Positions 8,723 to 11,580 of a stretch of DNA of 35,237 bases are shown piece by piece; the stretch's first letter is position 1, and the number at the start of each line of letters is the position of its first letter. The stretch spans positions 1-35,237 of the forward strand of contig JALVJO010000099.1 in the NCBI GenBank assembly GCA_027028245.1. Reading direction: 5' to 3'. Below the pieces are notes generated by a model. That model did no database searches. It was not told the DNA's origin and worked only from the letters and a program-made list of their open reading frames with translations. The translations under genes and the position numbers were made by a program. This DNA comes from Deltaproteobacteria bacterium. Lineage in GTDB: Bacteria > Desulfobacterota > Dissulfuribacteria > Dissulfuribacterales > QOAL01.

Positions 8723-9748
8723 TTAAGTTTCAGGGTCCGTAAGATTTTTGAAAAATTCATCCTTAAGTCGTTTCAGATCTTTTATGCTGCCTGTGCGGAA
8801 TACCTGGTCCCTGAAGGCAGCAGAATATTTAAGCCCCTTGGTATACCAGGCAACATGCTTTCTTGCCGTCCATGCAGCGGCTTCCGGGGAATAATGGGAC
8901 ATTATAAGATCGAGATGCAGATCTATGATTTCCGAAATCTCACCTGGAACAGGCGGGGGAACATCCAGGGAGCCTGACAAGGACCCGACCGCCTGGGCCA
9001 GTACCCAGGGCCTTCCCAAGGCAGCCCTTCCGATCATGACTCCGTCAGCTCCTGATTCCGCAAGACACCGCCTGGCATCTTCTGCACATCTTATATCCCC
9101 GTTTGCTATCACAGGGATGCCCACTTCATGCTTCACGGCCCGTATGGCCTTCCAGTCAGCCGTTCCGCCAAACATCTGGCTTCTGGACCTTGCGTGAACA
9201 CAGACCATACTTGCCCCTGCAGATTCCAGCATCCTGGAAAATTCCGGTGCATTCAAACATTCCAGGTCCCACCCCAGGCGGATCTTTGCAGTAACCGGCA
9301 CGTCAACTGCCGAAACAATGGCCTCGATTATCGAGGCCGCCAGGCCAGGCGTCTTCATGAGGGCAGCTCCGCTGCCGGATCTTATCACCTTTTTCTGCGG
9401 ACACCCCATGTTTACGTCAATCACGGCTGCCCCGAGATCCTGGCAGATCTTGGCGGCCTCCTTCATGACTATTGGGTCAGAGCCGAACAGCTGTACGGAA
9501 AGAAGATCTTCACCAGGCCCCGGTCTTGCCATGGTGAAAGTCTTTTGATTCCCCATGCAAAGAGCCCTTGCTGAAATCATCTCGGTAACAGTCAGCCCCG
9601 GGCCGAACCTTTTTGCAATGGCCCGAAACGGGTAATCGGTAATTCCTGCCAGAGGGGCAAGAAAGACATTATTGGGTATGAGAACGGATGCGGCCTGGAC
9701 TGGCCTTAGGAGATCTTCCTGGGTGATGACAGATTCTTCCGATTTCAC
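8723..9748 (-). CDS. dusB: tRNA-dihydrouridine synthase, DusB-type
   Basis: 341 residues, the usual length. This FMN-binding TIM-barrel enzyme reduces specific uridines of tRNA. Visible motifs are NNVFLAPLAGITDYPFRAIA at the N-terminus, VDVNMGCPQKKVIRSGSGAA (here IDVNMGCPQ, with the catalytic Cys), and VTAKIRLGWD. VCVHARSRSQMFGGTADW, PVIANGDIRCAEDARRC and GADGVMIGRAALGRPW (phosphate-binding Gly/Arg region) follow. The subfamily (DusB rather than DusA or DusC) is a best guess from the NMGCPQKKV form. It is convergent with the DivIVA-domain gene. Upstream on the same strand are the palindromic element and the candidate selenoprotein gene. Confidence 0.92.
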   Translation of the reverse strand: MKSEESVITQEDLLRPVQAASVLIPNNVFLAPLAGITDYPFRAIAKRFGPGLTVTEMISARALCMGNQKTFTMARPGPGEDLLSVQLFGSDPIVMKEAAKICQDLGAAVIDVNMGCPQKKVIRSGSGAALMKTPGLAASIIEAIVSAVDVPVTAKIRLGWDLECLNAPEFSRMLESAGASMVCVHARSRSQMFGGTADWKAIRAVKHEVGIPVIANGDIRCAEDARRCLAESGADGVMIGRAALGRPWVLAQAVGSLSGSLDVPPPVPGEISEIIDLHLDLIMSHYSPEAAAWTARKHVAWYTKGLKYSAAFRDQVFRTGSIKDLKRLKDEFFKNLTDPET

Positions 9749-9847
9749 GTGCTGGGATCAAGTCGAGATAGACAGCTATTTCTTTTTATAACTTATCACA
9801 GGTTCCAATGGGAGCTATGGGGGCTTTGCTGTATATATCCCCATTCT

Positions 9848-9956
9848 GTAAACGCTCACAGGGGGCCGCAGATGTAAGGCGGCGGGGGCGCAGTCGTACT
9901 CCCTGTACTTCAAGCGCCCGCCAACACAACAGATGCGGTGCCCTGTGAGCGTTTAC
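9848..9956. repeat. Large palindromic stem-loop element between dusB and the TGA-containing gene
   Basis: The outer arms GTAAACGCTCACAGGG (9848-9863) and CCCTGTGAGCGTTTAC (9941-9956) are perfect 16-base complements. Inner arms also pair: CCGCA (9866-9870) with TGCGG (9934-9938), GGCGGGGGCGC-type with GCGCCCGCC (9914-9922), and a GTAC/GTAC tip. The whole 109-base unit can fold into one long hairpin. The TAA stop of the upstream minus-strand gene lies inside its right arm. It may act as a terminator or processing site, or be an interspersed palindromic repeat. No T-tract follows on either strand. Confidence 0.85.
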
Positions 9957-10192
9957 TTCTTTTCTAGTATCATGTGTACATAATCAGTATGAACGTCTTC
10001 CTGGATAATCCGGCCCCCCACTATCCCCAAAAGCTTTCTCATCTTGGGAACAGTCTCGTGCTTTATAAAGACCTCTACCCTGTCTCCAGTGGGAACACGG
10101 GGATCTCGAAAGCGCAAACCTACGCCGGCAATTGCCCGTCAGCAGTCCTTCCTGCTGTCGATGACCATGGATACCCCTTTACCCGTATTCAT
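9953..10192 (-). CDS. Candidate TusA/SirA-like selenoprotein with in-frame TGA at codon 18
   Basis: 79 codons read from ATG 10192, with GGAGG five bases upstream, to TAA 9953-9955. Codon 18 (10139-10141) is TGA and everything else is open. The reading is MNTGKGVSMVIDSRKDC, then TGA, then RAIAGVGLRFRDPRVPTGDR, VEVFIKHETVPKMRKLLGIV, GGRIIQEDVHTDYVHMILEK and K. The pattern D-x-R-x-x-C near the start, GDRVEV in the middle, a Gly-containing turn (VGGRIIQ) and a final strand matches the two-layer TusA/SirA fold. In that family the active Cys is followed by Pro (CPxP); here the Pro position is the TGA, giving Cys-Sec. No alternative start follows the TGA for 34 codons (next Met at PKM). Selenocysteine insertion is inferred. 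The alternative is a nonsense-mutated gene. Substrate is unknown; family members transfer sulfur or selenium. Confidence 0.68.
10111..10141 (-). promoter_or_regulatory. Possible bacterial SECIS hairpin downstream of the TGA
   Basis: On the minus strand, 17 bases after the TGA (10139-10141), GGCGT (10126-10122) pairs with GCGCT (10115-10111). The loop is AGGTTT (10121-10116), containing GG. Bacterial SECIS elements are known to place a short stem with a G in the first two loop positions about 16-37 bases after the UGA, and this fits. Two of the five pairs are G-U wobbles, so the stem is weak. Confidence 0.5.
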
Positions 10193-10272
10193 CCTATCCT
10201 CCGTACTGCATGAAAAAAGACAAAAAACAACTAAAACTGCAAACAAAAGGGCTGCTCCGGGCATGGAACGCA

Positions 10273-11139
10273 TCATGAGGCAAGCTCCGAGGCATAACCA
10301 ATCATACGGTATACCAGACGGGCAGCGGTAAACTCCGCATGGTGCAGTCCCGGTACAGGCGCCAGCTCTACAACGTCGAAACCTGCAAGCTCGGATCTTC
10401 CCATGACCGCCCTCAATATCCCCGTCATCTCATACCAGAAAAGGCCGCCGGGTTCAGGCGTCCCTGTGGCAGGCATGATTGAAGGATCAAGGCAGTCTAC
10501 GTCAATGGTAATGTAAAGAGGTCTTCCTGTAAGCAAACTCAATATATCATCCAGGGCCCGCTGATAGTCCTGCCTTATCCGGCTGGCAAAAATGGGTCTC
10601 AGTTGGTGAGATTCCATAAACTGCCACTCTTTTCTGGAAAGAGAGCGTATGCCAGCCTGGATCAGGTTTCCATGCTCAAGGGCCCTTCGCATTACACAGG
10701 CGTGACTGTAGCTGCTGCCCTGATACTCGTCTCTAAGGTCTGCATGTGCATCCAGATGGAGTATGTCCAGGGGCCCGAAGTGTTCAGCTGCCGCCCTTAC
10801 GGCTCCTATTGAAACAGAGTGGTCCCCGCCGAGAAGAACCGGGACCTTGTTCTGTGAAAGGACTTCTGCCACTGCATGGTGTATGACAGGTTCGGCCTTT
10901 TTCGGTATCACCGGCAGTTCCAGGGCTTCTTCGGTAAAAATGCCCGCCTTCCAGGGCTCGGCTAAAAGCTCCTCGTCGAAAAGCTCAAGCTGCCCAGATG
11001 CCTCCAGAATCCTTGAAGGCCCCAATCTGGCGCCAGTGCCGTAACTGGCAGTAGAGTCAAAGGGAGCAGGGATGATTATGAACCGGCATTTCTGCCTTGA
11101 AGAGGCATGATTTGCCCCCAGAAACTGCACACCCATCAA
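10273..11139 (-). CDS. speB: Agmatinase/ureohydrolase family
   Basis: 288 residues, normal for the arginase/agmatinase/formiminoglutamase superfamily, which hydrolyses a guanidino group through a binuclear Mn2+ site. Metal ligands are visible in VLLGGDHSVSIGAV (His), DILHLDAHADLRDEYQG (Asp-x-His-x-Asp) and ITIDVDCLDPSIMP (Asp-x-Asp). Substrate-site features GTPEPGGLFWYEM and GFDVVELAPVPG are also standard. Agmatinase rather than arginase is favoured because it is immediately downstream of speD (3-base gap), pointing to polyamine synthesis through agmatine and putrescine. The next gene on the strand, 80 bases on, is the candidate selenoprotein, followed by dusB. Confidence 0.92.
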   Translation of the reverse strand: MMGVQFLGANHASSRQKCRFIIIPAPFDSTASYGTGARLGPSRILEASGQLELFDEELLAEPWKAGIFTEEALELPVIPKKAEPVIHHAVAEVLSQNKVPVLLGGDHSVSIGAVRAAAEHFGPLDILHLDAHADLRDEYQGSSYSHACVMRRALEHGNLIQAGIRSLSRKEWQFMESHQLRPIFASRIRQDYQRALDDILSLLTGRPLYITIDVDCLDPSIMPATGTPEPGGLFWYEMTGILRAVMGRSELAGFDVVELAPVPGLHHAEFTAARLVYRMIGYASELAS

Positions 11140-11142
11140 TAA

Positions 11143-11580
11143 TCAGAGGGTCATGTGGGCCCGCTCGTCCTTGATGAACTGCTGCACGCTCCTTATGACC
11201 TTTGGAAATTCGCGGCCCCTGTTCAGGAGCTTCACCTCCATCTTTTCAATGGAAAAGATATCCTTAATGTGCCTTATGGCAAGATCTGCATCAAAGGCCT
11301 TGCATGAGAATATATCTAGGCTCAGGTAAAGCTTGTCAGGAAACGTGTGAATACTTATATGGCTTTCTGCAATAAGCACAAAGCCTGAAATACCCCAATC
11401 CTCGGGCACCTTGCCGGAATACTTGAATACATAAGGGGGCATGATCTTGGTCATATTTATTTCATCAGGATACCGGCTCAGAAAATCATATATTCCATCC
11501 AGGTTGGACAATTTCTCACGGTCGCATCCATAACCGTCAAGCATCAGGTGCTGCCCGAATCCGTATTCGATATGTTCCAT
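11143..11580 (-). CDS. speD: S-adenosylmethionine decarboxylase proenzyme
   Basis: 145 residues, slightly longer than the roughly 120-130 of class 1B bacterial enzymes. The autocleavage site is visible in VLIAESHISIHTFPDK: cleavage between Glu72 and Ser73 makes the pyruvoyl cofactor, and the downstream His belongs to the processing site. A conserved Cys lies in LDIFSCKAFD. The product is decarboxylated SAM, the aminopropyl donor for spermidine. SpeE is not in the window. It heads the minus-strand run speD-speB. The N-terminus GFGQHLMLDGYGCDREKL is the usual opening strand and helix. Confidence 0.93.
   Translation of the reverse strand: MEHIEYGFGQHLMLDGYGCDREKLSNLDGIYDFLSRYPDEINMTKIMPPYVFKYSGKVPEDWGISGFVLIAESHISIHTFPDKLYLSLDIFSCKAFDADLAIRHIKDIFSIEKMEVKLLNRGREFPKVIRSVQQFIKDERAHMTL

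Follow-up and report, generated by a model that had tools for sequence, protein, structure and literature searches.

TusA/SirA-like sulfurtransferases (PF01206), such as E. coli TusA and the Desulfitobacterium SirA-like protein 3hz7, share with the protein family described here the beta-alpha-beta-alpha-beta-beta fold, a similar length and, where helix 1 begins, a DxRGxx[C/U] motif. However, the present family is predicted to carry selenocysteine (Sec) in place of the catalytic Cys, has an extra Cys before it and lacks the Pro of the CPxP motif; it also falls below Pfam detection and is probably exported in the order of the genome studied. Among solved structures the nearest is TsuB (YeeD), a component of the TsuA-TsuB complex for thiosulfate uptake (Z 11.0, 15% identity over 73 aligned residues), but TsuB contains no Sec and no TsuA/YeeE gene was seen beside the gene reported here, while a selenium-type YedE, a TsuA/YeeE relative, lies near the gene in some genomes of a second class. 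The selenium-associated TusA-DsrE protein YedF (TIGR03527) has a TusA-like domain and is encoded in selenium clusters that also hold the gene reported here (L179, L191), yet its Cys is an ordinary one, its C-terminal part is a DsrE domain, and it comes from a separate gene near the selenoprotein gene; the genome studied also has YedF, at another place (L002). A vicinal Cys-Sec pair is shared with the catalogued CU-motif selenoproteins (KCU-star/DUF466, HgcA, SaoC and MbdU), which belong to other domain families.

A review of May 2026, the fullest catalogue, covers 119 prokaryotic selenoprotein families, and its family table holds no TusA/PF01206 entry (PMC13188914). Neither TusA nor SirA is mentioned in a 2022 review or in the deep-Sep paper, and the genome paper of Dissulfurimicrobium hydrothermale discusses two TusA genes and does not use the term 'seleno'. 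The family reported here is likewise absent from Pfam and NCBIfam. A Sec-containing TusA-type protein therefore appears to be new, none having been found in Pfam, NCBIfam or the 119-family catalogue, and an earlier mention in supplements, preprints or subscription papers is possible.

The window, i.e., the whole stretch of DNA that was analysed, comprises 35,237 nucleotides from a Deltaproteobacteria bacterium of the order Dissulfuribacterales (contig JALVJO010000099.1). Taken as a whole, the best explanation for the gene it contains, with a probability of roughly 0.6, is an undescribed Sec-only TusA-like family acting as a Sec-based chalcogen carrier in selenium handling and exported in Dissulfuribacterales.

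The TGA-containing gene and its homologues

The gene is located on the minus strand, coding from 10192 to 9953 with a single in-frame TGA, and is missed by ordinary gene finders. The following features were recognized:

9953..10276, minus strand: full-length frame of 107 aa plus TAA, with Sec as residue 46 (within DSRKDCU); its product contains a TusA-like domain and is probably exported as a lipoprotein
9953..10192, minus strand: 79-codon open reading frame from an alternative internal ATG (10192-10190) with the Shine-Dalgarno sequence GGAGG (10202-10198); its product would be cytosolic
10139..10141, minus strand: in-frame TGA, predicted to be read as selenocysteine, directly 3' of the Cys codon TGC
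10111..10126, minus strand: SECIS-like hairpin GGCGTA-GGTT-TGCGCT of 6 bp, loop at 10120-10117, supported by covariation and codon-preserving shuffles
9955-9953, minus strand: TAA stop codon of the selenoprotein gene
9846..9958, no strand assigned: palindromic repeat of about 110 bp overlapping the stop codon of the selenoprotein gene

The 79-residue product, with TGA translated as U, is MNTGKGVSMVIDSRKDCURAIAGVGLRFRDPRVPTGDRVEVFIKHETVPKMRKLLGIVGGRIIQEDVHTDYVHMILEKK. An earlier note on this DNA had described 79 codons with TGA as codon 18 and 61 codons behind it, a GGAGG ahead of the ATG and a short hairpin with GG in its loop 17 bases past the TGA; all of these were recovered, the loop starting 18 nt past the TGA. 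The palindromic repeat that abuts the stop codon recurs at about 20 places genome-wide with 70-95% identity (22 matches within this genome). A role as terminator or regulatory element was rejected for it, since the repeat is interspersed throughout the genome, and it is no part of the selenoprotein system.

Homologues were found in 70 distinct Desulfobacterota genomes, including 25 from the window's own order, 32 from a second class (the class of genome G308) and 13 others; the genomes were drawn from the own order (46 genomes), the second class (85) and a phylum sample of 395 genomes. The gene is present in 25/46 genomes of Dissulfuribacterales and in 32/85 of the second class. A first protein search gave a homologue in 26 of 148 related genomes, each with one internal TGA, and the set was then widened by profile searches within Desulfobacterota. 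Among named genomes, a scan with the single protein as query gave no match, while one with the alignment as query matched deep-sea Deltaproteobacteria metagenome-assembled genomes. One order-mate of the window carries the gene at 1949094-1949312, and it is also present in genome G021 at a locus with a GC content of 0.71.

The earlier note had proposed looking for the TGA in homologues, and a TGA lies at the same site inside the match in all 70 genomes, with neither Cys nor another sense codon there in any of them. A Cys codon directly precedes the TGA in every copy that was read out, and the vicinal Cys-Sec pair is invariant. Cys homologues, sought with two profiles in the searched genomes, were not found; matches without an internal TGA had E values of about 1e-5 or worse, and those read out (in G324, G318, G236, G358, G137, G203, G157, G441 and G040) were ordinary TusA, YedF or unrelated proteins. 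At the inspected loci of relatives that lack the gene, the whole gene is gone and no Cys version takes its place: in G009 a short motif-free stretch separates speB from dusB; G022 has znuC followed immediately by dusB. The family thus looks to be Sec-only with an absolute dependence on Sec, since no Cys version was seen and the inspected gene-less relatives have simply lost the gene.

The hairpin occupies a fixed position: its stem begins 12 nt and its 4-nt loop 18 nt past the TGA. Across 44 distinct sequences, 99.2% of cells in the stem are paired, and two-sided changes occur at five of the six pairs, notably G-C to A-U in 20 sequences. Complete hairpins were counted in 43/45 genes, compared with a mean of 1.4 and a maximum of 8 over 2000 runs of a null in which synonymous codons were resampled and the protein kept. 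In addition, 36/45 genes encode the Val in the stem by GTA, although elsewhere they use GTA less than any other Val codon. The 6-bp stem, the GGTT loop and the 18-nt spacing lie within the limits published for bacterial SECIS elements as regards the stem, the size of the loop, its G and the spacing (PMC13188914). The codons past the TGA are under purifying selection (dN/dS of 0.05-0.5). Together, the TGA in 70/70 genomes, the hairpin exceeding a codon-preserving null and the purifying selection place the observation far beyond chance.

The window genome possesses selA, selB, selC (tRNA-Sec) and selD, the last of which itself contains a TGA. Judged from the sequences, insertion of Sec at the TGA is near certain, and the call of a candidate selenoprotein made in the earlier note is well supported by the same-site TGA, the covarying hairpin and the four machinery genes. 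A stop codon in frame within an otherwise ordinary small gene might also indicate a TusA-like pseudogene created by a nonsense mutation, or two separate open reading frames. This explanation is refuted by the conservation of the same TGA in 70 genomes and is further opposed by purifying selection, one conserved fold across the TGA and the covarying hairpin, so that its probability is practically nil.

Several relatives have an additional selB next to an additional, shorter tRNA-Sec-like gene, over and above the canonical pair; this is possibly a variant UGA-decoding system:

G008:C127 26401-27974, G022:C11 19880-21882, G023:C1 1461214-1463225, G024:C2 677348-678567 and G050:C163 452-2487: second selB with an 89-nt tRNA-Sec-like gene

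Such pairs could suggest that the UGA is decoded as another amino acid, either by reassignment to Trp or by Cys insertion through a variant SelB/tRNA pair. However, TGA also terminates normal genes here (speB), the window genome has a canonical tRNA-Sec and selB, and the hairpin fits a SECIS element. A reassigned code was likewise rejected on the conservation of the TGA and on the selection results; decoding as another amino acid is therefore very improbable.

Predicted fold and the Cys-Sec site

An AlphaFold2 model built from 44 sequences (pLDDT 94.7, pTM 0.83) shows the order beta-alpha-beta-alpha-beta-beta. The top six rows of the VIA-align comparison are all of TusA type, namely TsuB (Z 11.0 and 10.6), TusA (10.0, 9.5 and 9.5) and a SirA-like protein (9.4), and the next fold follows at Z 7.6. 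PrmA-type methyltransferases, ranked first by Foldseek alone, were ruled out, VIA-align favouring TusA. Profile-profile comparison by hhalign with TusA proteins of the same phylum gave a probability of 96.7% (E 4.6e-10, 75 columns). Pfam and NCBIfam TusA models, run against single sequences, matched neither the window protein nor any of 26 members, and a PDB sequence search gave no match. The TusA/SirA-like assignment of the earlier note is thus backed by profile comparison and by the modelled fold, and a TusA-like fold for the family can be predicted with high confidence. It is named TusA-like rather than TusA since single sequences have no Pfam or NCBIfam match and the CPxP Pro is missing.

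The same note had placed the TGA at the Pro position after the active Cys. Instead, hhalign pairs U with the Cys that is invariant in TusA, and the Cys before U falls on a variable position; the CPxP motif is absent, with Sec at the Cys position and no Pro after it. Sec in the catalytic position together with the extra Cys before it makes up the vicinal Cys-Sec pair.

By itself, the modelled fold is compatible with a carrier and with a thiol/selenol oxidoreductase alike. The protein is best read as having a Cys-Sec pair that serves either in carrying selenium/sulfur or in redox chemistry. A thiol/selenol redox enzyme (a disulfide, peroxide or metalloid reductase), in which the Cys-Sec pair would cycle between selenolthiol and selenenylsulfide, is the main rival to a chalcogen carrier. 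The invariance of the pair would suit such an enzyme, and redox roles have been inferred for most uncharacterised selenoproteins (PMC13188914), but the predicted fold is of TusA type and not of thioredoxin type.

The N-terminus and predicted export

The earlier note had the protein start at the ATG at 10192. However, the frame is open further upstream and reads MMRSMPGAALLFAVLVVFCLFSC|STEDR before the internal ATG, and the full product likely starts at 10276, where the ATG overlaps the TGA stop of speB (ATGA). A sequence scan of this frame showed a putative hydrophobic signal sequence and, after it, a lipobox Cys:

10208..10210, minus strand: lipobox Cys (LFS|C), predicted lipidation site; a lipobox-like motif is also present in relatives

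Among Dissulfuribacterales relatives, the upstream frame is open and strongly hydrophobic in 14/23, compared with 0/46 for the other two frames. In the window and six relatives, 25-28 codons separate the lipobox-like motif from Sec, and in two others the distance is a little greater; most lipoprotein forms have the lipobox Cys equally far from Sec. Since the frame continues into a signal peptide with a lipobox, the main product in the window's order is probably an exported 107-aa lipoprotein, and export there can be regarded as likely. The order members L018, L019 and L021-L023, as well as the second class, have no signal sequence.

Within the lipoprotein frame, the window (10192-10276) and L004 and L006-L010 have an internal ATG together with a Shine-Dalgarno-like sequence, which L005, L013 and L014 lack. 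As this arrangement recurs in several, not all, relatives, a dual start giving exported and minor cytosolic forms is possible. Locus L026 (G025:C154) contains a nicotinamidase-like sequence followed by the selenoprotein domain in one open frame of about 273 aa, possibly a fusion protein.

Export as a lipoprotein would also suit a periplasmic reductase, which adds to the case for the redox enzyme set out above. For a secreted and anchored domain in Dissulfuribacterales, a carrier or a redox step alike would take place at the outer face of the membrane.

Gene neighbourhoods and the proposed role

In Dissulfuribacterales the gene is usually flanked by speB and dusB, and in some cases a ZnuC-like or ABC-F gene comes after speB. 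The neighbours in the window are as follows:

8723..9748, minus strand: dusB-like tRNA dihydrouridine synthase, downstream neighbour (PF01207, E 2.3e-93), kept in most Dissulfuribacterales copies
10273..11139, minus strand: speB-like agmatinase/arginase, upstream neighbour (PF00491, E 9.5e-70)
11143..11580, minus strand: speD-like S-adenosylmethionine decarboxylase, further upstream (PF02675)

A ZnuC-like zinc-transporter ATPase gene lies upstream in L075, L077, L132, L133 and L134; if speB is there too, the ZnuC-like gene stands between it and the selenoprotein gene. As pointers to function within the window's order, dusB, speB, speD, ZnuC and ABC-F were set aside, as they look like conserved gene order only; dusB and speB are uninformative on sulfur or selenium. 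No selenium-specific genes were seen adjoining the window locus, and the link to selenium operons was found in the second class only.

In that class, where the selenoprotein has the cytosolic form without a signal sequence, a LysR_Se-like gene lies directly upstream in 12/16 fetched neighbourhoods, which are not independent events since the genomes are related. All 10 of the LysR_Se genes scanned scored above the cut-off of NF040786, the NCBIfam model for the selenium metabolism-associated LysR regulator. The order in G470 (L179) is LysR_Se, the selenoprotein gene, selD, yedF (TIGR03527), yedE (TIGR04112), Se_S_carrier (PF11823) and a carbohydrate-kinase-like gene; other clusters hold parts of this set, or yqeB (TIGR03309). 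The carbohydrate-kinase-like gene (PF01256, E 8.4e-12; L179 9560-10444) has homologues in L180, L188 and L190, and is kept beside the YedE and Se/S carrier genes in four clusters.

These neighbours handle selenium (YedF, YedE, SelD, Se_S_carrier) and are not redox partners, which speaks against the redox enzyme; that explanation, at somewhat above one chance in four, is unlikely but is the strongest competitor. The adjacency of LysR_Se might instead suggest a selenium-status sensor whose level or redox state reports selenium supply to the adjacent regulator. The absence of a Cys version among the searched genomes agrees with this, and the level of a protein made only when Sec is available would report selenium supply. 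However, in the window's order there is no LysR_Se coupling and the protein is exported, and a published proposal already names selenophosphate as the LysR_Se effector (PMC5322559); a sensor is thus quite improbable.

Sec use is near certain; we infer the function of the protein as follows, the chalcogen-carrier role being somewhat favoured. SelB and tRNA-Sec would decode the TGA as Sec, directed by the SECIS hairpin, a step strongly supported by sequence. The TusA-like fold would then present the vicinal Cys-Sec pair at the N-terminal end of helix 1, where TusA carries its one catalytic Cys. TusA, YedF and TsuB serve as analogues for the next step: the pair might bind a chalcogen, either Se or sulfane S, as a Sec-bound per-species, pass it on and be reset through a Cys-Sec selenenylsulfide, acting in selenium handling. 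In Dissulfuribacterales the domain would be secreted and attached to the membrane, either as a lipoprotein or as a membrane protein, while in the second class a cytosolic protein would be placed with the selenium regulon. A more specific version, in which the obligate-Sec TusA-like protein is a selenium carrier that hands activated selenium to SelD, or retrieves periplasmic selenium in Dissulfuribacterales, is tentative, at about one chance in four.

Since one class embeds the gene in a selenium regulon (LysR_Se, SelD, YedF, YedE and the Se/S carrier), the family bears on intracellular selenium delivery. Two cultured sulfur disproportionators appear to carry the gene, which makes the family testable. 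The in vivo selenium donor to SelD is still open (PMC13188914), and if the protein does deliver selenium to SelD, it would be a concrete candidate for that donor, and a selenoprotein would help to supply the selenium for making selenoproteins.
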